56,193 bases of DNA, from positions 1 to 56,193 of IMG/VR virus record IMGVR_UViG_3300020198_001070. One strand, written 5' to 3'. Position 1 is the stretch's first letter; each line of letters begins with the position of its first letter. The notes below the pieces were generated by a model. It was not told the origin of the DNA and made no database searches. It worked only from the letters and a program-made list of their open reading frames with translations. This DNA is from a virus. Made by a program: the position numbers and the translations under genes. Of the stretch, positions 20,974 to 55,907 are shown one piece after another.

Positions 20974-23097
20974 ATGGATATGAATAAAATAACAGTAATC
21001 AAAAGAAATGGTTCTAAAGAACCATTAAATTTAGAAAAATGGCAACAACAGATTGCCAACGTTTGTTCAGGAATTGCAGATGTCAGTCAATCAATGATTG
21101 AAATCAAAAGTCAACCTCATTATTATGACGGCATTACTACTAAAGAAATCGATGAAATTACATTACGCGCTATCGTCGACTTAATCGATATAGAAGCAAA
21201 CCCAGATATAGGTCATACAAATTATCAATATGTAGCAGGTAAACAACGTTTATCAATGCTACGTAAAGATGTATACGGGCAATTTCAACCACTGCCATTA
21301 TATGAATTAGTTAAGAAAAATGTAGAAATTGGTCTTTATACACCAGAACTTTTAGAGTGGTACAATGAAGATGAATGGAATAAAATGGAGTTATTTATTG
21401 ACCATTCAAAAGATGAACAATATTCATACGCTGCCATTGAACAATTGATTGAAAAGTATCTTGTAAAAAATAGAGCAACTAAGGAAATTTTCGAAACTCC
21501 ACAAGTTCGTTACATGGTTGCTGCCGCAACAGTTTTTCATAAAGAAGAACCAAATTCGGCTAGGATGAAATATATCAAGGAATATTACAATGCTGCATCC
21601 GATGGCCTTTTTACTTTAGCCACCCCTGTACTTGCCGGTCTTGGTACGCCCACAAAACAATTTAGTAGTTGTGTTCTTATTCGCAGTGACGACGATCTTG
21701 ATAGTATTTTCGCCGCCGGTGAAATAATGGCGAAGTATGCTAGCAAACGTGCTGGCATAGGATTAGAAGTAGGTAGACTTCGTCCAGTAGGTTCACCTAT
21801 TAGAAATGGCGAAATCATGCATACCGGCTATATTCCTTTTCTTAAAAAATGGTATGGTGATTTAAGAAGTTGTTGTGTAACTCCTGAGACTTGGGTAGAG
21901 GTCATTGATGAGGGAGATTCCGATGAAATGGAAAAAACTAAAAAAATTCAAATTAAAGACCTAGCAGTAGGCATGAAGATTAAGACCAAAGACGAAACAG
22001 GTGAGATTGTTTTCAAAACAGTTACTAACAAATGGGACACAGTTGTCAAACAAGAAGACCAAGTTCGTTTGGAATTTGAGAATGGCGTGGTGTTAAACTG
22101 CTCGATAAATCACCCAATTATGTGTTTGGATGATGTCGGGTCAGTTGTCCAGAAGTTGCCAGATGCTCTAACACCTAAAGATCGTGTGTTAACTGAAGGC
22201 GGGTTTACACGGTTGCTAACTATTGATTTTGTTCAAGACAATGACGAAAACTACCTCGACATCACAGTAGAAAATACTCACACATTTTTTGCTTCTGGTT
22301 GTAAAGAAGGTCCAATGGTTCTGACTCATAATAGCCAGGGAGGTCTCAGAAATGCATCTGCTACAATTTTTTACCCAATCTGGCATTACCAATTTGATGA
22401 CCTTATTGTTCTTAAAAACAATCAAGGCACTGAAGAAACTAGAGTTCGTCATATGGACTACGGGGTCGTGTTATCAGCGTTCTTTTGGAGACGATGCAAA
22501 AACAAAGAAAACATAACATTCTTTGACCCAAACGAAGTTCCAGACTTATACGAAGCATTTTATCAAAATACATCTTTATTTGAAGAACTATATGTAAAAT
22601 ACGAAAAACGAAAAGACCTTCGTAAAAAAGTAATGAACGCAGAAGATGTATTCAAAGGTGGAATTTTAAAAGAACGCACTGATACCGGTAGAATTTACCT
22701 AGTGTTTATTGATAACGTAATGAACCAAGGACCATTTGATCCAGAATATCATACCATTTATCAATCTAATTTATGCTGTATAGCAGGTGATACAAAAGTA
22801 ACTTTCCAACATGAAAATGGAGGGGAAGAACAGATGTCTGTTTCGGATGCAGTTGAACGATTTAATTTAGGTGGATTATCTACTTCAAAAATTAAAAGTT
22901 TTAAGAATGGTGAAATTTCTTGGGAACATATTTCTGCAGCAATAGAAACAAAAACTGTTACAGAATTATATGAAATAGAAGACATATCTGGAAAAATTAT
23001 TAGATGTACAGGTGATCATTTAATTTATACAAAAAATCGAGGTTATGTTAGAGCAGATGAACTAATTGAAACCGACGTGTTATGTATAGAAAATTGA
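20974..23097 (+). CDS. nrdA: NrdA N-terminal part with one cis intein and an N-intein
   Basis: Class Ia ribonucleotide reductase large subunit, which reduces ribonucleotides to deoxyribonucleotides with NrdB. Residues 1-300 are the ATP-cone and catalytic barrel start (TKQFSSCVLIRSDDDLDS, GIGLEVGRLRPVGSPIRNG). Residues 301-453 are a mini-intein inserted between RSC and SQGGLRN. Residues 454-601 continue NrdA to YQSNLC. Residues 602-707 are the N-half of a split intein, after which the frame ends in TGA. The rest of NrdA is in the 23247 gene, so two splicing events, one in trans, are needed for the enzyme. Confidence 0.93.
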   Translation: MDMNKITVIKRNGSKEPLNLEKWQQQIANVCSGIADVSQSMIEIKSQPHYYDGITTKEIDEITLRAIVDLIDIEANPDIGHTNYQYVAGKQRLSMLRKDVYGQFQPLPLYELVKKNVEIGLYTPELLEWYNEDEWNKMELFIDHSKDEQYSYAAIEQLIEKYLVKNRATKEIFETPQVRYMVAAATVFHKEEPNSARMKYIKEYYNAASDGLFTLATPVLAGLGTPTKQFSSCVLIRSDDDLDSIFAAGEIMAKYASKRAGIGLEVGRLRPVGSPIRNGEIMHTGYIPFLKKWYGDLRSCCVTPETWVEVIDEGDSDEMEKTKKIQIKDLAVGMKIKTKDETGEIVFKTVTNKWDTVVKQEDQVRLEFENGVVLNCSINHPIMCLDDVGSVVQKLPDALTPKDRVLTEGGFTRLLTIDFVQDNDENYLDITVENTHTFFASGCKEGPMVLTHNSQGGLRNASATIFYPIWHYQFDDLIVLKNNQGTEETRVRHMDYGVVLSAFFWRRCKNKENITFFDPNEVPDLYEAFYQNTSLFEELYVKYEKRKDLRKKVMNAEDVFKGGILKERTDTGRIYLVFIDNVMNQGPFDPEYHTIYQSNLCCIAGDTKVTFQHENGGEEQMSVSDAVERFNLGGLSTSKIKSFKNGEISWEHISAAIETKTVTELYEIEDISGKIIRCTGDHLIYTKNRGYVRADELIETDVLCIEN
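21874..22332 (+). other. cis mini-intein in NrdA, 153 aa
   Basis: Starts with Cys (CVTPETWVEV), has a block B-like segment (NCSINHPIMC) and ends TFFASGCKEG...VLTHN before a Ser +1 residue: the HINT-domain layout. No homing endonuclease domain fits in 153 aa. It interrupts the conserved KSC/SQGG site of NrdA. Confidence 0.9.
22777..23094 (+). other. N-terminal half of a split intein (NrdA)
   Basis: Begins CIAGDTKVTF, includes the block B segment RCTGDHLIYT and ends GYVRADELIETD...N followed by TGA. It resembles the NrdA-2 group of naturally split inteins described from marine phage metagenomes. Confidence 0.88.
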
Positions 23098-23128: not shown

Positions 23129-23254
23129 ATGTATAAAGAACTTTATAAAATACTGATAGATAATGCGAAATTAGAAACCAGAATAAAAAATCAAGGAACA
23201 TATTATGAACAAAACCATGAGTTTGTTCAAGGAAGAATAAAAAATAATGATTAA
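23129..23254 (+). CDS. 41-aa relic between the intein halves
   Basis: ATG frame with ribosome site TAGAGG. The end, GTYYEQNHEFVQGRIKNND, resembles the first HNH element of phage homing endonucleases (TYYEKHHI...) but stops before the rest of the domain. Probably a truncated homing endonuclease; its stop overlaps the ATG of the C-intein gene. Confidence 0.5.
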   Translation: MYKELYKILIDNAKLETRIKNQGTYYEQNHEFVQGRIKNND

Positions 23255-23348
23255 AATTAGAAAAATAATAGTTGAAGCAACAAAAGTATATGATATAACT
23301 GTTCCAGAAACCGAGTGTTTTTTTGCAAATGATATGTTGGTTCACAAT
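23247..23348 (+). other. C-terminal half of the split intein, 34 aa
   Basis: MIKIRKIIVEATKVYDITVP followed by a segment ending FFANDMLVHN and then Cys +1. This matches the short C-inteins (about 35 aa) of naturally split phage inteins. Confidence 0.9.
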
Positions 23349-24332
23349 TGTGAAATTTTACTTCCTACTAAACCATTTAAACGATTGGATGATGAAAGTG
23401 GCAGAATATCACTCTGTACCCTTGGCAGTCTGAATTGGGGTTCGTTTAGAAACCCAGAAGATATGCGTAGAGCTTGTAGAATTCTACATAGAAGTTTAAA
23501 TAATATTCTTGATTACCAGGACTTCTTATCAATACAAAGTAAATTAAGTAATGATGAAATTAGACCAATCGGAATTGGTATTACTAATTTAGCATATTGG
23601 GCAGCTAAACGTGGGTTTAAATATGGTGAACCTGATATGTTGGCCGAAGTTAAAAGTTGGATGGAACATCAAGCATACTACTTAACTGAATCCAGTGTTG
23701 AATTAGCCGAAGAACGTGGTCCGTGTTTACATAGTGATAAAACCAGATATGGACAGGGTATATTCCCTTGGGAATTACGTGCAGCCGGTGTTAATGAATT
23801 AACAGATTTCACCCCCGAATTACCTTGGGAACCATTACGTGACAGAATAAAAGTAAGTGGTGTTCGCAATGCCACACAAATGGCTATTGCACCAGTTGAG
23901 AGTTCTAGCGTTGTAATAAATTCAACTAATGGAATTGAAATGCCAATGCAATTAATCCAAACTAAAGAATCTAAATCTGGGTCATTAACACAAGTAGTTC
24001 CAGAATACCACAAATTGAAAACCAAATATCAATTATTATGGGAACAAACTGATTGTATCGGATATTTAAAAACAGCTGCTGTTTTAGCTGCTTTTACCGA
24101 CCAATCAATCAGTACCAATACTTTTTACAATCCTGCACATTTCCCAGATAGAAAAGTGCCAACAACATTGATTGCTAAAAACTTAATGTTAGCTCACTAT
24201 TTTGGGCTAAAAACTCTGTACTATTCGCTCGTAAGCAAACAAGGTAGTAAAGTAGATGATGTTGTTGACTTACCAAGAGGTGTTGATATCAATGACGATG
24301 ATGAAGATGAATGTATTGCATGTAAATTATAA
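23247..24332 (+). CDS. nrdA: C-intein plus NrdA C-terminal part
   Basis: Residues 1-34 are the C-intein half; from Cys35 the protein resumes NrdA: CEILLPTKPFKRLDDESG, then the C-terminal barrel with ISLCTLGSLNWGS, GIGITNLAYWAAKRG and QMAIAPVESSSVVINSTNG, ending in an acidic tail with the redox pair CIAC. Trans-splicing to the 20974 product would rebuild a full NrdA of roughly 770 aa. No separate promoter is seen, so both halves probably come from one mRNA. Confidence 0.93.
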   Translation: MIKIRKIIVEATKVYDITVPETECFFANDMLVHNCEILLPTKPFKRLDDESGRISLCTLGSLNWGSFRNPEDMRRACRILHRSLNNILDYQDFLSIQSKLSNDEIRPIGIGITNLAYWAAKRGFKYGEPDMLAEVKSWMEHQAYYLTESSVELAEERGPCLHSDKTRYGQGIFPWELRAAGVNELTDFTPELPWEPLRDRIKVSGVRNATQMAIAPVESSSVVINSTNGIEMPMQLIQTKESKSGSLTQVVPEYHKLKTKYQLLWEQTDCIGYLKTAAVLAAFTDQSISTNTFYNPAHFPDRKVPTTLIAKNLMLAHYFGLKTLYYSLVSKQGSKVDDVVDLPRGVDINDDDEDECIACKL

Positions 24333-29623: not shown

Positions 29624-30040
29624 ATGAATCTAGGTAGAATCACCGTAATAACGCCACCAGATAAACTATTTAATTTAAATATAAGTTATCTATTAATCAG
29701 CCCAACGTTGCATGTAAAACACCAATTTCAATCAATATTAAGTAAAAGTGTCGATGACTTAAACGTATTTATTTTTGAAAATGATGAATCGGACATTGAT
29801 TGGTTACTTAGTGTAGCGCATGTAGTAGATGTAGTAATAATTGATATAGACAATTGTAATAATATTGTCAAAAATTTTATTTCATTCTTGTTAAGCCAAC
29901 CAAATGTTCATTATATAACAAATGATGAATTAACCCCATATAATTTAATATCCAAAAATAGAATTTTCAACCTAGATTGGATCATTGAACAACTAGAAAA
30001 TACAGAGGACGATGAAGATGATGATGAATCAGAAGACTAG
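29624..30040 (+). CDS. phage protein with acidic tail, 138 aa
   Basis: Alpha/beta sequence (MNLGRITVITPPDKLFNLNI, HVVDVVIIDIDNCNNIVKNF) and a C-terminus made almost only of Asp/Glu. The 3' end overlaps the bS21 gene by 29 nt. Function unknown. Confidence 0.55.
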   Translation: MNLGRITVITPPDKLFNLNISYLLISPTLHVKHQFQSILSKSVDDLNVFIFENDESDIDWLLSVAHVVDVVIIDIDNCNNIVKNFISFLLSQPNVHYITNDELTPYNLISKNRIFNLDWIIEQLENTEDDEDDDESED

Positions 30041-30248
30041 AACTGGTATTTATATTAAAGATAGCGATAATATAAACCAAGCACTACGAAAATTTAAAAA
30101 GAAAGTAGAAGAAAGTGGTAAATTAGATGACCTACGGACCAAGGAATATTATGAAAAACCAACTACTGAACGCAAACGGGCCAACGGAGCTGCAAAGGCC
30201 AGGCTAAAGAAAAAACTTCAAAAAGAAGCATTACCAAAAAAACGGTAA
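30012..30248 (+). CDS. rpsU: ribosomal protein bS21 homologue
   Basis: After a short Met-rich start, the protein has the bS21 pattern: ALRKFKKKVEESGKLDDL, KEYYEKPTTERKRANGA and a Lys/Arg-rich tail. 78 aa, family-typical. bS21 binds the 30S platform near the anti-SD and helps start-site choice; virus-encoded bS21 is known from pelagiphages and others and may bias ribosomes to phage mRNA. Confidence 0.85.
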   Translation: MKMMMNQKTRTGIYIKDSDNINQALRKFKKKVEESGKLDDLRTKEYYEKPTTERKRANGAAKARLKKKLQKEALPKKR

Positions 30249-34798: not shown

Positions 34799-36700
34799 AT
34801 GAAAAAAAAAATAATTGGCATTGATTTAGGAACTGGTGTATCTTGTGTTTCAGTTTTTGAAAATGGAACATATAAAATCATCGAAAATTCAGAAGGGTCT
34901 AGAACTACCCCAAGTGTAGTGACTTATACTGATACTGAAATTTTAGTCGGAGTTGCGGCAAAACGACAAGCAATTTCAAATCCAACCCACACCATTTACG
35001 AAATTAAAAGATTAATTGGTCGTAAATTTAATGACAAAGAAGTCCAAAATAGTATCAAATCACTTCCATATAAAATAATTGAAGCTGAAAACGGTGATGC
35101 TTGGATAGAAGTTAATGGTAATAAAATTTCACCACAGCAAGTCTCTGCTGAAATCCTTCGAAAAATGAAATCTACTGCAGAAGAATATTTAGGGCATGCA
35201 GTTACTGATGCCGTAATTACAGTACCTGCATACTTCAACGATGCACAACGTCAGGCAACTAAAGATGCTGGAAAAATAGCTGGATTGAATGTAGAACGTA
35301 TTATTAATGAGCCAACTGCCGGGTCCCTTGCGTTTGGTCTGGATAAACAATCATCAACCGATAGAAAAATTGTTATTTGGGATACTGGGTCCGGTACTCA
35401 TGATATTTCGGTAATAGAAATATCAAACATTGATGGTGAACATCAGTTTGAAGTTATTTCAACCAATGGTGATTGCCATTTAGGTGGGACTGACTTTGAT
35501 AATAGAATTATCGAATTTTTAAATAATGAATTCAAAACAGAAACTGGTATTAATTTGCTAGATGATGTTATCGCACTACAAAGACTGAAAGATGCAGCCG
35601 AAAAAGCAAAAATAGAACTATCTAATACATTACAAACTGACATCAATCTGCCATATATTTCAGCAGATAATACTGGTCCAAAACACTTAACTGTGAAATT
35701 ATCTCGTTCTAAATTTGAATCCTTGATTGACGATTTAATTGATCGATCTATTGAACCTTGCAAAATTGCATTGCATGATGCAAACTTATCAATTTCTGAT
35801 ATCGATGATATCATTTTAATAGGCGGTTCAACTAGAATTCCTAAAATGCAAGAAGCGGTTGAAAAATTATTTGGTAAAGTACCAAGAAAAGATGTGAATC
35901 CAGATGAAGCTGTAGCAGCAGGGGCTGCCGTTCAAGGCGCAGTTCTCGCAGGTGACAAAACTGATGTACTATTATTGGATGTAACCCCATTAAGTTTAGG
36001 GATCGAAACAATGGGTGGGGTATTTACCAAGTTGATTCAAAAAAATACCACTATCCCAACTAAAGCTAGTCAGACCTTTTCAACTGCAGAAGATAATCAA
36101 CCGGCAGTAACAATCAAAGTCGGACAAGGCGAACGTGAGTTATATCATTATAATAAGCAATTGGGTGAATTTAACTTAGATGGTATTGCGCCGTCCCCAC
36201 GTGGGATGCCACAAATCGAAGTTACCTTTGATATCGATGCGAATGGTATCATGCATATTTCAGCGCAAGACAAAGGCACTGGTAAGAAAAATAATATTAC
36301 CATCAAATCTGATTCTGGGCTAAGTGAAGATGAAATCAATCAAATGATTAAAGATGCGGAAACCAATGCGGAATCAGATAAAAAACAAAAAGAGTTGATT
36401 GAAGCACGTAATGGTGCAGAATCACAACGGCATAGTCTGCAAAAAGATTTTAATGATGTCAAAGATCAACTGACGGATGATGAACGTGCAGCATTTGAAG
36501 AAGCAACTTCTACCTTAGAAGAAGCAGTAAAAGGGGACGACGTTGAAAAAATCCAAGAATCTGTTTCTAAATTGTTTGAAGCAGCATCACCAGTTTTTGC
36601 TAAAAAACAAGAAGCTGAACAATCAACGAAAGACTCGGCAGGTGAATCTGATGAAGAATCAATCGACGCAGATTTTACAGAAGTTGACCCAGCGGAATAA
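34799..36700 (+). CDS. dnaK: Hsp70 chaperone DnaK
   Basis: 633 aa, full length: nucleotide-binding domain ([74 protein letters not shown]), linker [15 protein letters not shown], substrate-binding domain and helical lid, with an acidic C-terminus [14 protein letters not shown]. Two ATP-site motifs differ from cellular DnaK: GIDLGTT reads GIDLGTG and DLGGGTFD reads DTGSGTHD. No DnaJ or GrpE nearby, so it may use host co-chaperones. Good ribosome site (AGGAG). Confidence 0.95.
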
Positions 36701-36718
36701 AAATAATACAATATATGT

Positions 36719-36749
36719 GTGGGGTGCTCAAGGGAGACCCCACCTTTTT
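36719..36749 (+). terminator. intrinsic terminator after dnaK
   Basis: Stem GTGGGGT / ACCCCAC with a 10-nt loop, followed by CTTTTT. Confidence 0.8.
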
Positions 36750-36773
36750 CTTGCTTATGAAAGGAGAATTAAA

Positions 36774-37211
36774 ATGACACAATACAAACAACAATTAAGA
36801 ACAATTACCTCGTTAGATGCAGCAGCTCTTAGTAGAGCGTTAGTTGGATTTGATAGAATCATCAGTAGTAAATTAAATAGTACACAATCTAATTACCCAC
36901 CACACAATATACTCAAATATAATGAAACAAATTATGGTATTGAATTGGCAGTCGCAGGATTTAGTAAAGAAGAAATCAAGATCACAGTAGATCAAAATAT
37001 CTTATCTATTAACGGCGAACGTACAAACCCAATTTCAGAAGGCATTGAATTTTTGCACCGTGGGTTGGCAGCACGAAATTTCGTTGTTGAATTTCCATTG
37101 GCAGAATTTATGGAAGTCCGAGAAGCCGAGGTTAACAACGGAATTCTTAGGATTAGCGTAGAATACATCGTACCAGATGAACTCAAACCACGTCAAATTG
37201 AAATAAAATAG
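36774..37211 (+). CDS. small heat shock protein (Hsp20/IbpA type)
   Basis: 145 aa with the alpha-crystallin domain: YGIELAVAGFSKEEIKITVD, NILSINGERT, FLHRGLAARNFVVEFPLAEF and the C-terminal strand NNGILRISVEY. It holds unfolded proteins for DnaK, which is directly upstream. Own ribosome site (AAGGAG) after the dnaK terminator. Confidence 0.9.
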   Translation: MTQYKQQLRTITSLDAAALSRALVGFDRIISSKLNSTQSNYPPHNILKYNETNYGIELAVAGFSKEEIKITVDQNILSINGERTNPISEGIEFLHRGLAARNFVVEFPLAEFMEVREAEVNNGILRISVEYIVPDELKPRQIEIK

Positions 37212-37220
37212 TTTTTAATA

Positions 37221-37241
37221 TGGGGAAGTCAGACTTCCCCA
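37221..37241 (+). terminator. hairpin between hsp20 and clpS
   Basis: Perfect TGGGGAAGTC / GACTTCCCCA stem without a T run; may attenuate or protect the 3' end. Confidence 0.45.
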
Positions 37242-37262
37242 TTATATCAGGAAAATATAATA

Positions 37263-37562
37263 ATGTCAGATGTAAAATTTGAAGAATCAGTAAGTATCAA
37301 AGTTACTGAACCTAAAAAATGGAAGGTTATTATTTTAAATGATGATCATACCCCACACGCGTTTGTGATTTCGCTACTAATCGATCTTTTCCGTCATGAT
37401 GTCCAAAGCGCAACTGCCGTAACTACACAAGTCCATGAAACTGGGTCAGGCATTGCTGGAATTTATGATTTTGAAATTGCTGAAGTAAAAGCGGTTGATG
37501 CTACTAAACTGGCACGAGAAAATGGATTTCCATTACAAATTAAAATTGCGCAAGATGATTAA
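37263..37562 (+). CDS. clpS: ClpS-like adaptor
   Basis: Core motifs WKVIILNDDHTPHAFVISLL, TQVHETGSGIAGIYDFEIAE and DATKLARENGFPLQIKI follow ClpS. ClpS brings N-degron substrates to ClpA for ClpP; the phage form could redirect host ClpAP. 99 aa, with the acidic NDDHTP substrate/ClpA contact kept. Lies in the DnaK-Hsp20-ClpS proteostasis set. Confidence 0.88.
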   Translation: MSDVKFEESVSIKVTEPKKWKVIILNDDHTPHAFVISLLIDLFRHDVQSATAVTTQVHETGSGIAGIYDFEIAEVKAVDATKLARENGFPLQIKIAQDD

Positions 37563-44221: not shown

Positions 44222-46267
44222 ATGATTAAAAAAATAATTGTAAGTCCTTGGACGGCATTGTTAACATTATTGCTGGTTATCAGTGTTCGAATATCAGACC
44301 CTGTGTTTGTCGAAAGCATTAGGTTACGGTATTTTGATACGTTAATCACATCCAAACCTACCACAGAAAATAACATATTTACAGTTAATATTGATGAAGA
44401 ATCTATCAACCAATATGGACAATGGCCATTTAAACGTGATATATATGCAAACATAATACAAAATTTATACCAACATAATGCTGGATTAGTAGTATTTAAT
44501 GTATTAATGCCAGAAATAGACAGGCAGGGTGGTGATAACGTATTACAAGATGTATTATCATCATACCCAGTTATTCTACCAAATATACCATCTGATATTT
44601 CCAAAAATACCCCAAAAATACCGGGTTCAGCAGTATTAAATCCAGAATACTTAGATAGAGTTATACAATACCCAGGAATTATTGCAAATATTCCATCATT
44701 AGAAGATATTGCAGCCGGGGTCGGTACTGTTAATACATTACCGGAAATAGATGGTGTTAATCGACGGATACCATTGATAGTAACAGTCAACGACAAATTA
44801 TACCCAGCACTTAGTTTAGAAACATTACGTGTTGCGGCAGGTGATACGACATTTCAAGTAAAATTGAGTGAATTAGGTGTTGAAAAAATGCGTATACCCG
44901 CATTTGGTCCTATAACAACAGATAATTTAGGTAGAATATGGATAGATTGGAGTCAATCAGCGACCAGTATAAGTCTTTCCAATATTCCAAATGATTTGGG
45001 TGGGGCAATTGTGATAGTTGGTCCAACAGCTGCTGGAATAGGCAATCCTATACCAACAGCGAAAGGGGCAATTTTTCCACACGAAACACAAGCATCAGTA
45101 ATTGGTACTATGTTGAATAACGTAGTTATTCAACGACCTGATTACGCAGATGGTATGGAAATACTAAGTGTGTTACTAGCGGGGATGTTATTACTTGCAT
45201 TGACAAGATGGATTTATATTGGGTTACTATCAATTGTTATAGTATCTGTTGGTGCAGTTTTGGGTAGCAGGTATGTATTTTCACAGTATCTATACCTTAT
45301 CGATGTGACTTTTTTTATTAGTAGTATTGTGTTAACATCATTGCATGCATATGGTGTTAAATTTTTAAGTGAATTCTTCCAAAAACAGCAAATCAAAAAA
45401 CAATTCGGTTCATATGTAAGTCCGGTAATTGTTGAACGTTTACAAAAAAATCCTAATCTTATTAAATTGGGCGGCGAAGAAAAAATGCTGTCAGCAGTAA
45501 TGACAGATATGCGGAACTTCACGGGGTTAGGTGAAAAATATGGGTCTGATGTAGAAGGGTTTACTTCTATTATGAATGAATACATGACTACAATCAGTGT
45601 CCCGGTATTTGCAAATGATGGATGTTTAATTAAATTCATTGGTGATGCGTCTTTACATATTCATGGTGCACCATTAGATGATTCACGACACGCATACCAC
45701 GCGGTAAAAACTGCGATTGAAATGATTCAAGCAGTTGATGATTTTAATAAGCATTTGCATTCAATTGGAAAACCACCAGTTGGCATGGGGGCTGGTGTAA
45801 ATACTGGTAAAATTCTAGTAGGTAATATTGGCAGTTCTGGCAAAATGGGGTATGATGTATTAGGTGACCCAGTATCAGTAGCTAGTCGATTAGAAGGGCA
45901 AACAAAAAGTTATGGTGTATTATTATTAATTGGTCCAGATACATTTAATGATGTAAAAAATGATTTTCATTGCTTTGAACTAGATTGCATTGCTCTTAAA
46001 GGAAAATCTATTGGATTACATATCTATACACCATTGTTCAATAATGACAACTTTAACCAACCGGATGCAGAACGACATGCTTATATGATTGAAGCATACC
46101 GTGCGCAAGATTTTGACACTGCCGAAATAATGACGCGTAGTTTATTTGGTTGTTTTGGTGGTGAATTAGACCATTACTATGAATTATGGCTGGACAGAAT
46201 CAATATTATGAAAGAATTATCATTACCATCTGATTGGGATGGAATTTATCGAGCTACATCAAAATAA
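44222..46267 (+). CDS. CHASE2-domain adenylate cyclase, 681 aa
   Basis: TM helix at the N-terminus, periplasmic CHASE2 domain (residues about 35-300; FTVNIDEESINQYGQWPF, GVNRRIPLIVTVN), three TM helices to about 380, then a class III cyclase domain. Metal Asp residues lie in VMTDMRNFT and IGDAS; purine-selecting Lys (LIKFIGD) and Asp545 (GYDVLG) indicate ATP. The transition-state Asn is Ser552 (GDPVSVASR) while Arg556 is kept, so activity may be reduced or altered. Would make cAMP in response to an envelope signal. Follows the RimK-like gene with a 1-nt gap. Confidence 0.9.
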   Translation: MIKKIIVSPWTALLTLLLVISVRISDPVFVESIRLRYFDTLITSKPTTENNIFTVNIDEESINQYGQWPFKRDIYANIIQNLYQHNAGLVVFNVLMPEIDRQGGDNVLQDVLSSYPVILPNIPSDISKNTPKIPGSAVLNPEYLDRVIQYPGIIANIPSLEDIAAGVGTVNTLPEIDGVNRRIPLIVTVNDKLYPALSLETLRVAAGDTTFQVKLSELGVEKMRIPAFGPITTDNLGRIWIDWSQSATSISLSNIPNDLGGAIVIVGPTAAGIGNPIPTAKGAIFPHETQASVIGTMLNNVVIQRPDYADGMEILSVLLAGMLLLALTRWIYIGLLSIVIVSVGAVLGSRYVFSQYLYLIDVTFFISSIVLTSLHAYGVKFLSEFFQKQQIKKQFGSYVSPVIVERLQKNPNLIKLGGEEKMLSAVMTDMRNFTGLGEKYGSDVEGFTSIMNEYMTTISVPVFANDGCLIKFIGDASLHIHGAPLDDSRHAYHAVKTAIEMIQAVDDFNKHLHSIGKPPVGMGAGVNTGKILVGNIGSSGKMGYDVLGDPVSVASRLEGQTKSYGVLLLIGPDTFNDVKNDFHCFELDCIALKGKSIGLHIYTPLFNNDNFNQPDAERHAYMIEAYRAQDFDTAEIMTRSLFGCFGGELDHYYELWLDRINIMKELSLPSDWDGIYRATSK

Positions 46268-50368: not shown

Positions 50369-50518
50369 ATTAAACAGCGCATATGGAAGACATTGGTACA
50401 ATAATGGAGTAAAAAAATTATTATCTATATCCATCAGATAATAAAATCGCTGAAATGAATTTAGAAAAACGTAGACTCCATTTGAATGGATGATATGGGT
50501 TTGTGAGAATTCGTTGAA

Positions 50519-50790
50519 GGTATTGTAATAGTCTTGGCGGACTCGGCTATCGTTATGCCGACATCTCCACCCCCCATCAAAAGTGTACTTAAATCTGAAA
50601 AAGATGACGTTTGGGGATAGTACACTTTTGATGGGGATGTAAGGATTCGACGTTGAGATGAAGGAATACTGGAGAATCATCAGATAAGATGTAAAAATTA
50701 AATAAAGTAAATGCAAAAGCAAATACAAAATTTGAATTCTACACTGTAGATGGCATCTTTGATGCCATTGCTGCCTAGTAAGTAGCAAGT
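50519..50790 (+). ncRNA. ssrA: circularly permuted (two-piece) tmRNA
   Basis: The acceptor piece comes first: T-arm TCGGC/GCCGA (50543-50561) and 3' acceptor strand CATCTCC (50562-50568) with ACC. A spacer with an 18-bp precursor stem follows (50572-50636). The coding piece then starts GGGGATG (50633), pairing fully with CATCTCC, and has the tmRNA hallmark GGATTCGACG (50643-50652). P2 forms between CGTTGAGA and TCTTGGCG plus AATACT/GGTATT. The tag frame (50713-50775) encodes AKANTKFEFYTVDG... ending DAIAA, then TAG TAA inside a hairpin (TTGCT/AGCAA). It rescues stalled ribosomes. Exact ends uncertain. Confidence 0.8.
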
Positions 50791-50859: not shown

Positions 50860-50936
50860 GCGCTAGTAACCCATATGGCAAGGGTGACTGCCTCTAAAAC
50901 AGTATATAGCAGGTTCAAGTCCTGTCTAGCGCACCA
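50860..50936 (+). tRNA. tRNA with CTA anticodon (amber suppressor)
   Basis: 77 nt: acceptor GCGCTAG/CTAGCGC with ACCA, D-stem ACCC/GGGT, anticodon loop CTCTAAA giving CTA, which reads UAG, T-arm GCAGG-TTCAAGT-CCTGT. The anticodon stem has one C-A mismatch at its top. All other arms are intact, so it is likely expressed. It could insert an amino acid at UAG codons; which one cannot be told here. Confidence 0.82.
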
Positions 50937-50956
50937 TTCGATTATAGTACATATTC

Positions 50957-50985
50957 TTGACATAAAAAAATAATTGGAGTATAAT
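50957..50985 (+). promoter_or_regulatory. consensus sigma70 promoter
   Basis: TTGACA, 17-nt spacer, TATAAT: perfect. No ORF follows for 500 nt, so it drives a non-coding RNA. Confidence 0.85.
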
Positions 50986-50991
50986 ACACAA

Positions 50992-51386
50992 TATTAGGCT
51001 CCATTATAGGCAACATAGGCAACCCCACTTCAGATAATACTTGCACTGGTAAGATGAATAAGTGCCCCGAGATACGGAATGTGCTTCGCGTAGAGGGAAA
51101 CAATTGTGCTGAAGCAATGACTCATTTGACTACCCACACCTCGTGTTGTGGATGATGATCGGATATGCCTTCATACAACCGATTTCGAATGTTTGAATAA
51201 TATTAAAAAAGGCTAAAGAAGGGAGAAAAACCCTACGGACATATATGCGCTGGTATGTATATATGCACCCGCCGTCAGAAAAAATACAGCACTTCGAGGT
51301 ACCGGCTGACCGCCTCTGTAATAGTGTAATACCAGTGTGAAGTCAACTCAGTTGAAAAAATCATTTGCCCCCTTGCGGGGCAAAAT
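50992..51386 (+). ncRNA. unidentified structured RNA of about 400 nt
   Basis: Starts after the consensus promoter, has no sizeable ORF, and contains several helices, e.g. GGGAGAAAAACCC, ATCGG...CCGAT, CGTCAG...CTGACCG, and a strong final hairpin TTTGCCCC/GGGGCAAA at 51364-51386 with no T run. It lacks the signature sequences of RNase P RNA, 4.5S or a second tmRNA. Large phage RNAs such as GOLLD and ROOL also lie by tRNA clusters, but I see no basis for naming this one. Confidence 0.55.
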
Positions 51387-51458
51387 ATGCTTGTAATCTA
51401 GTTGAATATATACATAATATTACTATTGATAATATGTGACGAACGACAGTGAGGAACA

Positions 51459-51478
51459 GGGGAATGTATTCCCCGTTT
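51459..51478 (+). terminator. hairpin before the kinase-like gene
   Basis: GGGGAAT/ATTCCCC stem then GTTT; weak terminator. A stretch ATAAATA follows at 51483, only 6 nt from the next ATG. Confidence 0.4.
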
Positions 51479-51494
51479 AAGAATAAATATTATC

Positions 51495-52085
51495 ATGAAA
51501 ATTAATGAATTATCTGGATATAAAAATAATGATCTTTATACTAAAGCAAAAGAAATATTTACTGGTAATAAAGATCAGGATGTATCATTTCGTGAATGGA
51601 AAAACATAATGGATTATTATGGGTTCACACATCTTGGTTCTGGTTCATATGGATCTGCCTATGAACACCCCAGTTATCCTTGGGTGTTTAAGATATTTAA
51701 AGGTGATAAGTCATATTTAAAATATTTTAACTATGTTAAAAAAAATCAACATAACCCACATATTCCGAGAATAAAAGGTTCTTATATACGACTAGGCAAT
51801 GATGCTTATATTGTACGATTGGAAAAATTACAAAAAATATCAATGGATCAATATGAAAAAGTAGAGTATATAATTGATGTTTTTTCAAGTATGTTAGACA
51901 ACGATTCATCTAGTACTGAGATAACTCCAATGCAAGCACAATTGATTGACTCGTATCATGGGATATACGAGATTCTGGTAGCAATCAAATATATGTTTGG
52001 TGAATCCTATACAGACATTCATTATGATAATATCATGATGCGTGGTAATGTTCCTGTAATAATAGACCCCGTGGTAGACCAATGA
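51495..52085 (+). CDS. protein-kinase-like phage protein, 196 aa
   Basis: Gly-rich loop FTHLGSGSYGSAYEHP, Lys in WVFKIFKGD, and a C-terminal catalytic-loop and metal pair TDIHYDNIMMRGNVPVIIDP, as in the kinase/aminoglycoside-phosphotransferase fold. It is shorter than full kinases (no C-lobe beyond the DP motif). N-terminus MKINELSGYK is the common T4-like leader. Targets unknown; similar proteins occur in T4-like marine phages. Confidence 0.7.
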   Translation: MKINELSGYKNNDLYTKAKEIFTGNKDQDVSFREWKNIMDYYGFTHLGSGSYGSAYEHPSYPWVFKIFKGDKSYLKYFNYVKKNQHNPHIPRIKGSYIRLGNDAYIVRLEKLQKISMDQYEKVEYIIDVFSSMLDNDSSSTEITPMQAQLIDSYHGIYEILVAIKYMFGESYTDIHYDNIMMRGNVPVIIDPVVDQ

Positions 52086-52363
52086 AAGTACAACAAATAA
52101 TAGAAAACAAATTCAAACCAGCCGTCATTAATATTCATCTAGGTGGGTTTACCGGAACTAAAATTCCAGATGATCTTAAAAAATTTATAGCAATTCACAT
52201 TAAGCAATCTAAAAATGGGTCATACTATATAAATGAATATCCAGATTCATGGTATTCAAGAACATTTCAAGGTGATGGGCCATCTGATGGTATATATGAC
52301 TTCAAAACCTTTATGGATGTGTTAAAGCCATATTTTAGAGTTCAAAAAATTATTCAGCGATAA
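52082..52363 (+). CDS. small phage protein, 93 aa
   Basis: MKVQQIIENKFKPAVINIHL..., soluble, with Gly/Tyr-rich centre (YYINEYPDSWYSRTFQGDG). ATG overlaps the kinase-like stop (ATGA), suggesting a functional pair. Function unknown. Confidence 0.58.
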   Translation: MKVQQIIENKFKPAVINIHLGGFTGTKIPDDLKKFIAIHIKQSKNGSYYINEYPDSWYSRTFQGDGPSDGIYDFKTFMDVLKPYFRVQKIIQR

Positions 52364-52366
52364 AAG

Positions 52367-52394
52367 TAGACATTCCTGTTTTTCATGTTATAAT
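52367..52394 (+). promoter_or_regulatory. sigma70-type promoter for dam
   Basis: TAGACA, 16-nt spacer, TATAAT, 25 nt before the dam ATG. Confidence 0.6.
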
Positions 52395-52419
52395 TTTTTA
52401 AAAAATTTAAGGGTGTATT

Positions 52420-53229
52420 ATGCAAAAACCATTTTTAAAATGGGCTGGTGGTAAATCACGGCTAAGTGATAAAATTAATGAAGTACTACCATCGGGATCA
52501 CGATTAATTGAACCATTTGTTGGTTCTGGTGCAGTATTCATGAATACTGCATATGATGAATACCTATTAGCTGATACAAATGCAGATATAATACACTTAT
52601 ATAAATACCTACAAACAGAAGGTGAATATTTCATACAGTATTGTAAAACATTCTTCACAGCTTCTTATAATACAAAAAGCGAATATTTAACGAACAGAAG
52701 AATATTTAATACTACAACTGATACAAGATTAAAATCGGCATTATTCCTTTACCTTAACAGACATTGCTTTAACGGTCTATGTAGATACAATAATAAAGGT
52801 GAGTTTAATGTCCCATTTGGAAAATATGAAAATCCGTATTTTCCAGCAGAAGAAATGACAGCATTTTTTAATAAATCTAAAAGAGCAACCTTTATGCATG
52901 CAGATTTTAGATTATCATTGTCTAATGCAACAGTTGGTGATGTTGTTTATGCTGACCCACCATATGTTCCATTGACCAATACCGCATATTTCACAAGTTA
53001 CTCCATTGGTGGGTTTAGTATAAAAGATCAAACAGATTTACGTGATTTATCACTGCACCTTGCTGAACAAGATATCCCAGTCGTAATATCTAATCATAGT
53101 ACTGAATGGACATTGCAAAATTATAATGAAGCAACAATACATGAATTTGATGTTCAACGATTTATTTCTGCCAATGGTAGCAATAGGACTAAAGCAAAGG
53201 AATTATTGGCATTGTTTAAAAAACACTGA
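52420..53229 (+). CDS. dam: Dam-type DNA adenine N6-methyltransferase
   Basis: D12-class enzyme, 269 aa: FLKWAGGKSRL, SAM site LIEPFVGSGAVFMNT, catalytic VVYADPPYVPLT (DPPY) and NRHCFNGLCRYNNKGEFNVP as in Dam. Methylates adenine, probably in GATC, by family analogy. Could protect phage DNA from host restriction. Own promoter and a terminator afterwards. Confidence 0.9.
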   Translation: MQKPFLKWAGGKSRLSDKINEVLPSGSRLIEPFVGSGAVFMNTAYDEYLLADTNADIIHLYKYLQTEGEYFIQYCKTFFTASYNTKSEYLTNRRIFNTTTDTRLKSALFLYLNRHCFNGLCRYNNKGEFNVPFGKYENPYFPAEEMTAFFNKSKRATFMHADFRLSLSNATVGDVVYADPPYVPLTNTAYFTSYSIGGFSIKDQTDLRDLSLHLAEQDIPVVISNHSTEWTLQNYNEATIHEFDVQRFISANGSNRTKAKELLALFKKH

Positions 53230-53245
53230 AAAATACATATATAAT

Positions 53246-53287
53246 AACTATCTTTTATTTATAAAAAATTCAAAAGATAGTTAAAAA
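53246..53287 (+). terminator. AT-rich terminator after dam
   Basis: Perfect AACTATCTTTT / AAAAGATAGTT stem with a 15-nt loop. Confidence 0.6.
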
Positions 53288-53332
53288 CTTTTACATCAGT
53301 TGAACCAACTGGGTATATTAACGGATTACGAT

Positions 53333-53530
53333 ATGCAACCATTATTACCCACATTACAACTCACATCTATACAGGGCCGTCAACTGTATTGTGTGCATAT
53401 AGTATATCTAATTACAGACCCAATGATAAGGTTGGCTATCCAACGAAGAATTGAATTTATTACTGATATATGGCATCCAACACAGTTTTTAAGAATAACC
53501 AGACAACCATTGAAATATAAAACTAACTAG
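53333..53530 (+). CDS. small protein, 65 aa
   Basis: MQPLLPTLQLTSIQGRQLYC followed by hydrophobic and basic residues (IRLAIQRRIEFITDIW). The ATG has no clear ribosome site. It ends TAG inside the stem of the next structured RNA. Function unknown; moderate evidence for coding. Confidence 0.4.
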   Translation: MQPLLPTLQLTSIQGRQLYCVHIVYLITDPMIRLAIQRRIEFITDIWHPTQFLRITRQPLKYKTN

Positions 53531-53630
53531 AGTTCCTTTCCCGTCGGCGAGACTCGCCGTCTTAAATCCGATGGTGTAGTATTAAGACAATGTGTGCATA
53601 TCGCTGGGAACTCACCGCCTATGGTGTTTT
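53530..53630 (+). ncRNA. structured RNA with closing stem, about 100 nt
   Basis: GAGTTCC / GGGAACTC closes a domain with GGCG-AGACT-CGCC and a perfect GTCTTAA/TTAAGAC hairpin. It is followed by CACC-GCCTAT-GGTG-TTTT, a weak terminator. Precedes the tRNA-Ile. Identity unknown. Confidence 0.5.
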
Positions 53631-53648
53631 AGAAAACAAACAATATCA

Positions 53649-53739
53649 CTTACGGTGGCTCTTGGTAGAGCAGGACGTCTTATACGCGGTTCGGGCAGAT
53701 AACCCCCAGGGCCAGGTTCGATTCCTAGCCGTAGGACCA
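53649..53739 (+). tRNA. tRNA, probable Ile(TAT), with extra arm
   Basis: Acceptor CTTACGG/CCGTAGG with ACCA, D-arm GCTC-TTGGTA-GAGC and T-arm CCAGG-TTCGATT-CCTAG (one mismatch). Anticodon loop CTTATAC gives TAT (AUA codons). The anticodon stem is imperfect (A-G mismatch) and about 20 nt with a GGG/CCC hairpin stand in place of the short variable loop, making 91 nt. An Ile tRNA should not have a long arm, so it may be damaged or unusual. Confidence 0.55.
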
Positions 53740-53748
53740 AAAAAAAAT

Positions 53749-53777
53749 TTGACAACTTATAAAATAGTTGTTATACT
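53749..53777 (+). promoter_or_regulatory. strong sigma70 promoter for tRNA cluster
   Basis: TTGACA, 17-nt spacer, TATACT. It precedes a 220-nt structured RNA and tRNA-Met/Glu. Confidence 0.8.
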
Positions 53778-53783
53778 ACACAA

Positions 53784-54005
53784 ATTAGCAATAGTGCTGG
53801 CTACGTAAAGAGTCAGATGCAAAAGGTAGATACAGGACTTTCGAAGCAAAGTTAGATATGTTATGATCACCCGCAAACTAATATCAAGTGCTCTTGAGGG
53901 CGGAAAGTAAATTAGTCTAATTAGTTAAGAAGGTTGATGGCTGGATTGATCACCAGTCGATAACATCTGAGAAAGCTGTTGGAACGCTACCAACTTTACA
54001 CAATT
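53784..54005 (+). ncRNA. structured leader RNA of the tRNA cluster
   Basis: About 220 nt without an ORF between the promoter and tRNA-Met. Helices include ACTTT/AAAGT, GATG..CATC enclosing GCTGG/CCAGT, and GTTGG-AACGCTA-CCAAC. Could be a stable sRNA processed from the tRNA precursor. Identity unknown. Confidence 0.5.
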
Positions 54006-54007
54006 TA

Positions 54008-54084
54008 GGACCTCAAGCTTAAATGGTATAAGCAACCGGCTCATAACCGGTAGACACAGAGTTCGAATCTCTGGGGGTTCACCA
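54008..54084 (+). tRNA. tRNA-Met(CAT)
   Basis: 77 nt cloverleaf: acceptor GGACCTC/GGGGTTC with ACCA, D-stem GCTT/AAGC, anticodon stem ACCGG/CCGGT with loop CTCATAA, T-arm CAGAG-TTCGAAT-CTCTG. CAT could also be Ile2 after lysidine modification; it lacks the initiator C1-A72 mismatch. Confidence 0.92.
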
Positions 54085-54090
54085 AATAAT

Positions 54091-54166
54091 ATTCCTATGG
54101 AGAAGTGGTTATCTCATCACCCTTTCAAGGTGACTTCACGGGTTAGTTCCCCCCGTCGGGATACCA
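54091..54166 (+). tRNA. tRNA-Glu(TTC), degenerate T-arm
   Basis: D-stem GAGA/TCTC, anticodon stem TCACC/GGTGA with loop CTTTCAA (TTC), acceptor ATTCCTA/TCGGGAT with one mismatch, ACCA encoded. The T-arm (CGGG ... CCCG) has loop TTAGTTCC in place of TTCxAxx, and a C-rich insertion. Possibly poorly functional. Confidence 0.7.
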
Positions 54167-54170
54167 ATTT

Positions 54171-54288
54171 ATTTTAAAATACACTATCAGTCACTTCAAT
54201 ATCACTGGCCAGAAGGGTATTGAACTTGAGGGCGAGAGACAGGAGGATGGCATAACCATTCGTCTTCCCTTGTTAGTGTATTTTAAAT
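54171..54288 (+). ncRNA. long-stem RNA element A
   Basis: ATTTAAAATACACTA-type strand pairs with TAGTGTATTTTAAAT, closing a domain of about 85 nt with CAATA/TATTG and GGATGG/CCATTC helices. It begins 4 nt after the tRNA-Glu CCA. Could be a processing stem or an sRNA. Confidence 0.5.
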
Positions 54289-54291
54289 TAT

Positions 54292-54386
54292 GCTGTATTT
54301 CCAGTTGCGACGATCTCTCAGTTAAAAGCTGTCGAATTTCGTAAAGGGTAAAGGAAAGCTGAACCTTCTGGGTAGAATACAGCGCC
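54292..54386 (+). ncRNA. long-stem RNA element B, ends GCCA
   Basis: GCTGTATT/AATACAGC closes, with CCAG/CTGG inside and CGAC/GTCG and AAGG/CCTT hairpins further in. GCCA follows the stem, giving a tRNA-like 3' end, but no D, anticodon or T-arm consensus is present. Confidence 0.5.
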
Positions 54387-54388
54387 AA

Positions 54389-54455
54389 TTTTAGGATACA
54401 TTCAGCAAATTTTATTACATGAGACTTTTAATCTTACCAGTAAAAACGTATCCTG
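54389..54455 (+). ncRNA. long-stem RNA element C
   Basis: AGGATAC/GTATCCT stem enclosing an AT-rich 50-nt loop; ends at a T4-type late promoter. Confidence 0.35.
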
Positions 54456-54463
54456 TATAAATA
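54456..54463 (+). promoter_or_regulatory. T4-type late promoter (TATAAATA)
   Basis: Exact consensus, 16 nt before the short ORF ATG at 54480 and 60 nt before the TTA-anticodon tRNA. Confidence 0.55.
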
Positions 54464-54479
54464 TTTTAGGAGAATAACA

Positions 54480-54533
54480 ATGAAACGAAAGACAAAGTCA
54501 GAAAAAGAAGGCAAGAAAATTATGGAACTGTAG
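54480..54533 (+). CDS. possible 17-aa basic peptide
   Basis: ATG with an ideal ribosome site (AGGAG, 8 nt) and late promoter upstream; encodes MKRKTKSEKEGKKIMEL then TAG inside the start of the tRNA. The promoter and ribosome site argue for translation; overlap with the tRNA is odd. TAG read-through would add about 21 residues before TAA. Confidence 0.4.
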   Translation: MKRKTKSEKEGKKIMEL

Positions 54534-54587
54534 CTCAAGTTGGTTAGAGCAATCGCCTTTAAAGCGATAGGTTATGGGATTCCACCA
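54524..54587 (+). tRNA. tRNA with TTA anticodon, T-arm missing
   Basis: Starts GGAACTG, textbook D-arm AGCTC-AAGTTGGTTA-GAGC, anticodon stem ATCGC/GCGAT with loop CTTTAAA, so anticodon TTA reads UAA (ochre). After the stem only AGGTTATGGGATTCCACCA remains: about 20 nt that should form the T-arm and part of the acceptor are absent, leaving 64 nt. GGAA still pairs with TTCC. Either an internal deletion or a T-armless tRNA. Confidence 0.6.
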
Positions 54588-54706
54588 AAAATTATATAAA
54601 AATACATTCACGGTTAGGATACAGAGAAACTGGACGCAGGGGCTATCCGAAATAGTAGGCATACTTACCGAAATCTCTGAAACGAATGTATTCCTATATA
54701 ACTTTT
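54588..54706 (+). ncRNA. long-stem RNA element D
   Basis: Begins straight after the tRNA CCA. Strands ATTATATAAAAATACATTC and GAATGTATTCCTATATAACT pair over about 20 bp with few mismatches. Inside, CAGAGA/TCTCTG and GGATA/TATCC interleave as a possible pseudoknot, with CGGTTAG/CTTACCG. Compact and GC-richer than its surroundings. Identity unknown. Confidence 0.5.
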
Positions 54707-54722
54707 GAAACATACAATTGGA

Positions 54723-54755
54723 TGCTGTGAGGTTCAATTCCTTCTGATGGTGCCA
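54723..54755 (+). tRNA. orphan tRNA 3' half
   Basis: GAGG-TTCAATT-CCTT T-arm, TGATGGT acceptor strand and GCCA end. No 5' half pairing with TGATGGT is found upstream in the window near it. Remnant or part of a split tRNA. Confidence 0.45.
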
Positions 54756-54771
54756 ATTTGAGATACTTTAT

Positions 54772-54999
54772 ATGACTTGTAATAAATGTAAAAATTGTAA
54801 TAAAAAATACAAAATTATTGGATATAAAGAGAAAAATCAACTTAGAAAAAAACTATTGACATTGGGACTAACACCTAAAATAATATTCGAAATAGTTAGA
54901 AAAGCACCACTTGGTGATCCAATAGAAATTCAAGTTCGTGGATTTATGTTGTCTATTAGACAAACAGAATTTGACTTACTGATTTTACAAGAAATGTAA
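54772..54999 (+). CDS. feoA: FeoA-domain protein with Cys-rich N-terminus
   Basis: 75 aa. Residues 25-75 match FeoA: LRKKLLTLGLTPKIIFEIVR, then APLGDPIEIQVRGFMLSIRQ. FeoA is an SH3-like partner of the ferrous iron permease FeoB. The N-terminus MTCNKCKNCNKKYK has three Cys in a CxxCxxC pattern that could bind metal. No feoB in the window, so it may act on the host transporter. Sits alone within the RNA cluster. Confidence 0.78.
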   Translation: MTCNKCKNCNKKYKIIGYKEKNQLRKKLLTLGLTPKIIFEIVRKAPLGDPIEIQVRGFMLSIRQTEFDLLILQEM

Positions 55000-55111
55000 T
55001 ATATTGAATAATATACTGTTGTAGTGTAACAGCTTACATAGTAAGTGAAACATTCTATGACGACTATAGAGATTCGGTTAAAGTCCGATAACAGCTACCG
55101 ACATTACAAGT

Positions 55112-55180
55112 ATGAATGAATTTTATATAACCGCAGCTGATTATGAAGTTTTCCAAGCACATAATGTGCGTGGAAATTAA
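55112..55180 (+). CDS. possible 22-aa peptide
   Basis: MNEFYITAADYEVFQAHNVR..., ordinary protein composition; no strong ribosome site. A hairpin TTTCC..GGAAA with inner GCACAT/ATGTGC spans its end. Low certainty. Confidence 0.3.
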   Translation: MNEFYITAADYEVFQAHNVRGN

Positions 55181-55242
55181 AGAAATTCTACAATATAGAT
55201 ATGGGCAAGCGTGTTTAAATTATTTTTATCCAACTGTGGACA

Positions 55243-55359
55243 ATGTCCACAGTTGACCCAGTGAGTGGTAGTAAAGCATCACCCACTGAACTAATTTGGT
55301 GTGAACATTCAATTAATAAAGCGAAACAACTGATTGAAGACCACATCAATATAATTTGA
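55243..55359 (+). CDS. possible 38-aa protein
   Basis: MSTVDPVSGSKASPTELIWC then EHSINKAKQLIEDHINII; reads like a folded peptide. The ATG sits in the loop of a perfect hairpin CAACTGTGGA/TCCACAGTTG, which would hide or present the start. No clear ribosome site. Confidence 0.38.
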   Translation: MSTVDPVSGSKASPTELIWCEHSINKAKQLIEDHINII

Positions 55360-55406
55360 CCAAATAGGTTCTTTGCAGCAATAAATTTTTCTTACAATAA
55401 AAGAAA

Positions 55407-55464
55407 GGTCTGGGTTCGAGTCCCTGGGATAGAGTTGGTCACTATCATAGTTTAATCGGTAGAA
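55407..55464 (+). tRNA. tRNA 3' half followed by a 5' half (permuted order)
   Basis: CTGGG-TTCGAGT-CCCTG T-arm and GGATAG acceptor strand come first (55407-55434); then CTATC and a D-arm GTTT-AATCGGTA-GAAC (55441-55464). GATAG and CTATC pair over 5 bp across a 9-nt spacer, the layout of a circularly permuted tRNA. No anticodon arm is evident, so it may be debris. Confidence 0.35.
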
Positions 55465-55499
55465 CAAAATAAACAGAACCTGAAATTTTAAATAGCGAG

Positions 55500-55569
55500 A
55501 ACGTTCAAATGGTAGGATATCTGGGTTTGAACCCAGATAATCGTGACTAGAGTTCACGTTCCATTACCA
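55500..55569 (+). tRNA. tRNA-like, possible Gln(TTG), incomplete acceptor
   Basis: D-arm GTTC-AAATGGTA-GGAT, a 7-bp hairpin ATCTGGG-TTTGAA-CCCAGAT in the anticodon place (TTG if the loop opens), T-arm CGTGA-CTAGAGT-TCACG with an altered loop, and TTCCATT-ACCA end. The 5' strand does not pair with TTCCATT. Likely a degenerate tRNA gene. Confidence 0.4.
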
Positions 55570-55589
55570 CTTTTAACAAGAGTATTATC

Positions 55590-55907
55590 ATGGTATTAGA
55601 TACAGTAGTAAACGCAATTGGTGAATATAGAAATAACAAGGTAACAACCTTACAAGCTATACCAACGCATTTGAAATTGTACGTGAATAAATATTATGAG
55701 AAATCTGATAGGCATTTTGAAAGATTGATGGATATTTGTATCAACATACCATCCAATTTTACTATTTAAGTTATCGATGATACTATAAATATAAAGCAAG
55801 AAAAGGTCACATATACTTTAAGGTTTAGCCCCAATTTAACTGATGATGATTTTGAAGAATCAGAATTTGTGTTAAAATTGGTTAACAAAACACGTCGATG
55901 TGATTAA
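55590..55907 (+). CDS. protein with in-frame TAA, 59 aa or 105 aa by read-through
   Basis: ATG gene MVLDTVVNAIGEYRNNKV... of 59 aa ends at TAA (55767-55769). The same frame then continues for 45 codons with convincing protein sequence (VIDDTINIKQEKVTYTLRFS, ending VLKLVNKTRRCD) to the next TAA. Because the window encodes an ochre-anticodon tRNA, read-through at this stop is a real possibility; otherwise it is a gene broken by a nonsense mutation. Function unknown. Confidence 0.55.

Follow-up and report, generated by a model that had tools for sequence, protein, structure and literature searches.

Does a tRNA gene with a stop-reading anticodon, lying close to a gene with an in-frame stop codon, mean that a phage recodes that stop? 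The question is raised by a linear virus record of 56,193 nucleotides (IMG/VR record IMGVR_UViG_3300020198_001070; the whole stretch is called the window below), in which an amber tRNA gene with the anticodon CTA precedes a small gene at 55590 that is interrupted by TAA. An initial annotation had taken these two features, together with a tRNA-like element bearing the ochre anticodon TTA, to suggest stop-codon read-through or partial recoding in part of the infection cycle. Such proximity of a stop-reading tRNA and an in-frame stop codon is not in itself evidence of recoding. Comparison with related phages shows that the amber tRNA is genuine, evolutionarily conserved and under structural selection, with a conserved unusual anticodon arm, and the reading frames of the contigs that carry it do not support UAG recoding. 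The amber tRNA gene is:

50860..50936, + strand: intact tRNA, anticodon CTA, reading UAG (ARAGORN; Rfam tRNA, 56 bits; cloverleaf as minimum free energy (MFE) fold; homologues with compensatory changes)

The initial annotation had read an intact CTA tRNA here, and the ARAGORN call, the Rfam score and the cloverleaf obtained when the gene is folded alone all agree with it. The acceptor stem is GCGCTAG/CTAGCGC, and ACCA is encoded. The anticodon arm consists of a 4-bp stem, a C31·A39 mismatch and the loop CTCTAAA (C32-U33-CUA-A37-A38), in which U33 precedes the anticodon as an amber suppressor tRNA requires; in the MFE fold the mismatch widens the loop to 9 nt.

To assess conservation, the loci of relatives were fetched through an unrelated protein, the adenylate cyclase, and then scanned for tRNAs by ARAGORN; four of these relatives (L023, L027, L047 and L087) carry the CTA tRNA. 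An alignment of 15 CTA tRNAs, eight of them chosen by a pattern with a fixed loop, one by a looser pattern, had 90% of its pair cells paired and changes on both sides in 15 of 21 pairs. The cells changed on both sides numbered 53, against a mean of 15.8 in shuffles, and the signal was lost when the partner positions were slid. The constancy of the loop in this alignment is partly due to pattern selection, a bias of which the pairing evidence is free; five loops obtained without the loop-fixing pattern were also identical. C31·A39 is unpaired in 14 of the 15 aligned tRNAs. That it might be a universal trait of viral CTA tRNAs was rejected, as the first pattern had selected for it and a scan leaving positions 31 and 39 free found the mismatch in only 12 of 62 distinct viral CTA tRNAs; it therefore marks a class and not every such tRNA. 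CTA tRNAs are common on viral contigs, with at least 97 confirmed by ARAGORN in one scan, known relatives included. Recognition by the glutaminyl-tRNA synthetase GlnRS expects G73. The discriminator is A73 in 52 of the 62 tRNAs of the CTA class, which argues against charging by GlnRS, and the tRNAs most similar to that of the window are a mixture of Gly, Arg and Lys. Since the amber tRNA is intact and under selection, some capacity for UAG read-through in this phage is plausible.

If UAG were read as sense in a defined set of phage genes, conserved genes should be found interrupted by TAG. We examined five carrier contigs (the window, G006, G025, G039 and G009; about 310 kb, incomplete) for adjoining open segments that share a frame and match a single uninterrupted protein elsewhere. 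Because an E value below 1e-6 is demanded on each side, short fragments escape this test, and the 55590 gene was picked up only by a more lenient scan. A first six-frame scan gave hundreds of matches that were antisense frames or fused neighbours, and gene filtering was then applied. In these contigs no segment assigned as coding was split by any stop, TAG included, and all apparent splits fell in segments beaten by a better-supported overlapping frame. The comparison of in-frame stops with homologues that the initial annotation had proposed as a check thus left no conserved gene split in the five contigs. The in-frame stops in the flanks of the CTA loci show no TAG excess (TAG 5, TAA 11, TGA 6).

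Terminators tell the same story. Over whole contigs, TAG ends 36 of the 361 conserved genes of carriers and 47 of the 588 of non-carriers (Fisher p = 0.34), so avoidance of TAG as a terminator was not found; an apparent avoidance on flanking loci only (10/158 vs 160/1181) was gone with conserved genes on whole contigs. A second stop follows TAG within five codons in 25% of cases in carriers and 47% in non-carriers, and there is therefore no backup-stop signal after TAG in carriers. That most genes end at ordinary stops, as the initial annotation had stated, is borne out by these counts. Of its broader proposal, UAG read-through survives as plausible in view of the intact amber tRNA, while recoding has left no genomic trace. 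Within the sequence analysed, these reading frames show that UAG is still a normal terminator and that the carriers contain no phage gene in need of it as a sense codon. Programmed read-through was considered for the gene at 29624-30040, whose TAG context is conserved in four carriers, and was rejected: the following open reading frame (ORF; 30012-30248) runs across the stop, and that overlap would account for the conservation. Separately, a phage gene at L088 2299 is 99.5% identical over 201 residues to its counterpart in L082 and differs in having Gln versus an in-frame TAG, a natural nonsense variant.

The in-frame TAA belongs to a different codon and, as it appears, to a different process. 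The gene and the ochre element comprise:

55590..55769, + strand: 5' part of a small gene, to the premature TAA at 55767-55769 (homologues L002, L391 and L392)
55770..55907, + strand: remainder of the gene, open for 45 codons up to a TAA (homologues align through it)
54524..54587, + strand: remnant of a tRNA-Lys gene whose TTT anticodon has become TTA (81% identical to the tRNA-Lys locus of L002; Rfam, 28 bits)

The TAA is codon 60 of the 55590 ORF and is followed by 45 open codons up to the TAA at 55905. The initial annotation had seen convincing protein in this downstream part, and rightly so, as homologues align through it (G001, 53% identity; G025 and L391, 43%). The dN/dS ratio is 0.26 before the stop and 0.29 after it, values from a single pair with dS near saturation. 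No in-frame start codon occurs after the TAA before codon 94, and the C-terminal half is therefore not a separate gene. Homologues ending at or before residue 59 had been named as an outcome that would speak against read-through; they continue, which shows only that the ancestor of the gene was full length. Those in two other lineages run through with GCA or GAA at the position of the TAA, and G025, itself a carrier of the CTA tRNA, has GAA there. A stop used for regulated read-through would be kept in homologues; these have GCA and GAA instead. Because the homologues have sense codons at this position and continue, and because TAA is one base from GAA, 55767 is most simply read as a recent nonsense mutation, the small gene being dispensable.

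The second, UAA-reading tRNA of the initial annotation turned out to be a broken homologue of tRNA-Lys(TTT). Positions 54524-54587 align at 81% to L002 7405-7515, which contains most of an intact tRNA-Lys with the anticodon TTT, and intact tRNA-Lys(TTT) genes occur in further relatives too. The loop reads CTTTAAA in the window and CTTTTAA in L002; about 18 nt are missing from the window copy, and with them the T arm and some of the acceptor's 3' strand, and the acceptor stem is reduced to GGAA/TTCC. The element received no ARAGORN call, scored 28 bits with Rfam, under the 29-bit cut-off, and gave no cloverleaf fold, whereas the intact homologue at L002 7460-7536 does. An ochre suppressor tRNA would combine an intact body with a UUA anticodon; by its alignment and fold this element is instead a decayed tRNA-Lys. 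By the standard pairing rules UAA lies outside the reach of a CUA anticodon, as C34 is not expected to pair with the final A of that codon. With the ochre tRNA broken as well, neither tRNA explains 55767.

What the amber tRNA might do is suggested by its neighbour:

50508..50778, + strand: permuted two-piece tmRNA, its 3' part extending towards about 50850 (Rfam RF04321, 74.6 bits)

As in other two-piece tmRNAs, the acceptor and coding pieces are permuted and the tag ends in hydrophobic-Ala-Ala: the tag frame, AKANTKFEFYTVDGIFDAIAA, is terminated by TAG, and the peptide predicted from it ends in IAA. The amber tRNA begins 82 nt after the tag stop. A tmRNA on the same strand within 1.2 kb accompanies 7 of the 95 CTA tRNAs with enough flank and 12 of 548 other tRNAs (p = 0.014), a p-value that overstates independence, as the 12 control cases lie in three loci and several CTA cases come from related phages. 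Rfam adds L023 and L197, in which the tRNA lies less than 120 nt behind a permuted tmRNA. The link between amber tRNA and tmRNA is thus suggestive only.

We consider it most probable, at roughly 60%, that this is an orphan amber tRNA acting generally, and that the tRNA-Lys and the 55590 gene have decayed separately. The amber tRNA would probably share a transcript with the two-piece tmRNA that precedes it. During infection a host synthetase would charge it, and it would read UAG at modest efficiency in competition with release factor 1 (RF1), on host and phage mRNAs at large and not on specific phage genes; the tmRNA would free ribosomes that run beyond the last stop. Neither the in-frame TAA nor the ochre element would be connected with the amber tRNA: both would be separate lesions within a decaying array of tRNAs and ORFs. 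In E. coli, according to the account of Ueda et al. (2002) given in PMC3985003, suppressor tRNAs cause read-through that is resolved by the tmRNA system, and it is this precedent, with the tmRNA neighbours, that leads us to favor general UAG action with tmRNA clean-up. Several points weigh against it. Action of the amber tRNA in trans is something that we infer, and strong suppression would come at a cost to the carriers, given that they do not avoid TAG terminators. The Rfam scan of the available stretch found a tmRNA in only one of 14 further CTA loci (L197) and none in the other 13. The window is one assembled contig, and the TAA at 55767 may be read through or be a population variant; with only incomplete carrier contigs to search, a late gene containing TAG may have escaped notice. 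Lastly, the Hsp20 gene of the window ends in TAG (37209), ClpS follows in frame some 17 codons later, and an Hsp20-ClpS fusion by amber suppression is possible.

The same tRNA-tmRNA pair could serve to weaken or reprogram the host, with UAG read-through on host mRNAs yielding extended or non-stop proteins that the phage tmRNA tags for proteolysis. The co-occurrence of CTA tRNAs with tmRNAs, including L023 and L197, is in line with this, as are the ClpS, Hsp20 and DnaK genes of the phage, the passage in PMC3985003 on suppressor tRNAs driving the E. coli tmRNA system, and the host-weakening role proposed for the non-recoding suppressor tRNAs of Zeta crAss-like phages (PMC12386605). We nevertheless regard it as unlikely: the related phages behind the co-occurrence are not independent and its control cases come from three loci, most CTA loci have no tmRNA nearby, and the phage's own TAG-ended genes would be hit too. 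A more specific version, in which an amber tRNA with an opened stem is co-transcribed with the tmRNA as a termination-bypass module and pushes ribosomes past UAG, is doubtful; if true, host products and some phage products would be tagged by the tmRNA for proteolysis, and UAG would not be decoded in phage genes. Recoding of the code-15 type, in which the amber tRNA would permit late genes with in-frame TAG late in infection, draws on the Sup-CTA tRNAs found in 52% of the phages predicted to use code 15 (PMC11210395). Its chances seem very slim given the five carrier contigs without a conserved gene interrupted by TAG, the flanks without TAG excess, the carriers' ordinary use of TAG terminators, and A73 in place of the G73 expected for GlnRS.

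For the TAA at 55767, two further explanations were weighed. The amber tRNA, with its unpaired stem pair, might also read UAA by C:A wobble and so yield the full 55590 protein. The window tRNA does bear the C31·A39 mismatch, coding constraint persists downstream of the TAA, and the part of a review (PMC13092985) that treats E. coli tRNA-Trp reports UAA reading by a CUA variant with a mismatched top anticodon-stem pair. That effect, however, concerns pair 27-43, which is paired in the window tRNA, and not 31-39; the TAA is found in the window only and is absent at this position from the carrier G025, and the other conserved carrier genes showed no in-frame TAA, all of which makes the idea highly improbable. 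An assembly or sequencing error would fit a stop seen in a single contig where homologues have sense codons, but TAA is two substitutions from GCA, if only one from GAA, and the adjacent tRNA-Lys lesion is an 18-nt deletion, pointing to real decay; we rate an error as rather improbable. Separate decay beside an orphan amber tRNA remains our preferred account.

Orphan amber tRNAs of phages, present without target genes, are a kind already known from Xanthomonas phage XacN1 (PMC5852040), Stenotrophomonas phage Summit (PMC9022506) and Zeta crAss-like phages. Like XacN1 and Summit, whose authors searched for target genes with amber stops without success, the window combines a CUA tRNA with the standard code; unlike theirs, its tRNA is conserved across a clade, bears the C31·A39 mismatch in its anticodon arm and in several members lies beside a two-piece tmRNA. 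The code-15 phages (PMC11210395, PMC9523058) share a phage-encoded tRNA with a CUA anticodon and differ in having TAG inside many genes, with UAG read as Gln, whereas none was found in the carriers examined here, whose tRNAs have A73. Zeta crAss-like phages (PMC12386605) also retain a suppressor tRNA without codon reassignment, but their TAG is absent, rare or backed by TAA, and the TAG terminators of our carriers are ordinary and unbacked. What is new is the phage group and the conserved anticodon-arm variant with its tmRNA neighbour, which we did not find described in the open-access literature, although subscription journals may differ. Earlier suppressor tRNAs without recoded genes were noted singly; here structural selection is seen across a phage clade without a sign of UAG recoding, its members sharing a constant anticodon arm and several having the amber tRNA directly behind the tmRNA. 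Why a standard-code phage keeps a stop-reading tRNA thereby becomes a question for a few reporter and infection experiments.

Judged by its gene content, the window is part of a Melnitz-like, T4-like phage bearing curli and adenylate cyclase genes. This assignment rests on the adenylate cyclase at 44222-46267, which matches Methylophilales phage Melnitz and Pelagibacter phage HTVC008M, on the CsgG curli gene upstream of it, as in Melnitz, and on genes for NrdA (in two ORFs), NrdB, DnaK, Hsp20 and ClpS. Melnitz, a related T4-like phage, likewise carries a two-piece tmRNA (permuted ssrA), curli genes and an adenylate cyclase (PMC9004378); unlike the window it was reported with four tRNAs (two Arg, Leu and Trp) and no amber tRNA (PMC9004378). 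DnaK, Hsp20 and ClpS form a cluster at 34799-37562. NrdA, the large subunit of ribonucleotide reductase, spans ORFs at 20974-23097 and 23247-24332, and a weak intein C-terminal splicing motif opening the second ORF, ahead of the barrel domain, suggests a split or interrupted intein.

Other neighbours of amber tRNAs were also recorded. Downstream of the window tRNA lies:

51038..51194, + strand: Polynucleobacter-1 RNA (RF01718; Rfam, 68.4 bits)

This RNA is also present in L002, L023, L027 and L047. Freshwater-2 RNA (RF02980) occurs near the amber tRNAs of other phage contigs (L170 2060-2142 and L173 4909-4992). A CTA tRNA lies directly upstream of a phrog_34511 gene in seven of ten viral-contig loci and is absent there in three. 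A strict operon of the two was rejected, in view of these three copies, of the window tRNA, which lacks the gene, and of isolate phages that have the gene with no annotated tRNA alongside.

The region around the decayed tRNA-Lys holds further tRNA genes:

53649..53739, + strand: class-II-like tRNA remnant called Ile(TAT), with an ill-paired anticodon stem (ARAGORN; weak Rfam match)
54008..54084, + strand: intact tRNA-Met(CAT) of the same array (ARAGORN; Rfam)
54090..54165, + strand: tRNA-Glu(TTC) with the altered T loop TTAGTTCC (ARAGORN; Rfam, 28.9 bits, slightly under the cut-off)

ARAGORN finds three tRNAs in the window at 53.2-55.6 kb, seven in the matching stretch of L002 and six in that of L392. 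With its damaged tRNA-Lys, altered tRNA-Glu and malformed Ile gene, the tRNA/ORF array at 53.5-55.9 kb is eroded. A tRNA-like element occurs at window 53531-53617 and L002 6655-6722; in L002 its anticodon loop carries GTA and its acceptor stem is 7 bp long (GGGTTCC/GGAACCC), yet it received no ARAGORN call. Between the tRNA genes stand long AT-rich inverted repeats with structured inserts, such as AAAATACACTA...TAGTGTATTTT (window 54174-54383 and 54592-54702; L002 6540-6600 and 7533-7606), which matched no Rfam family. At L002 7605-8370, an ORF of about 212 codons, weakly matching zinc-finger proteins and phage endonuclease I, lies between two tRNA-like halves, GGTAATATAGC... and ...GAAAGTTCAACTCTTTCTATTACCTCCA; it may be an endonuclease gene carried by an intron that interrupts a tRNA.

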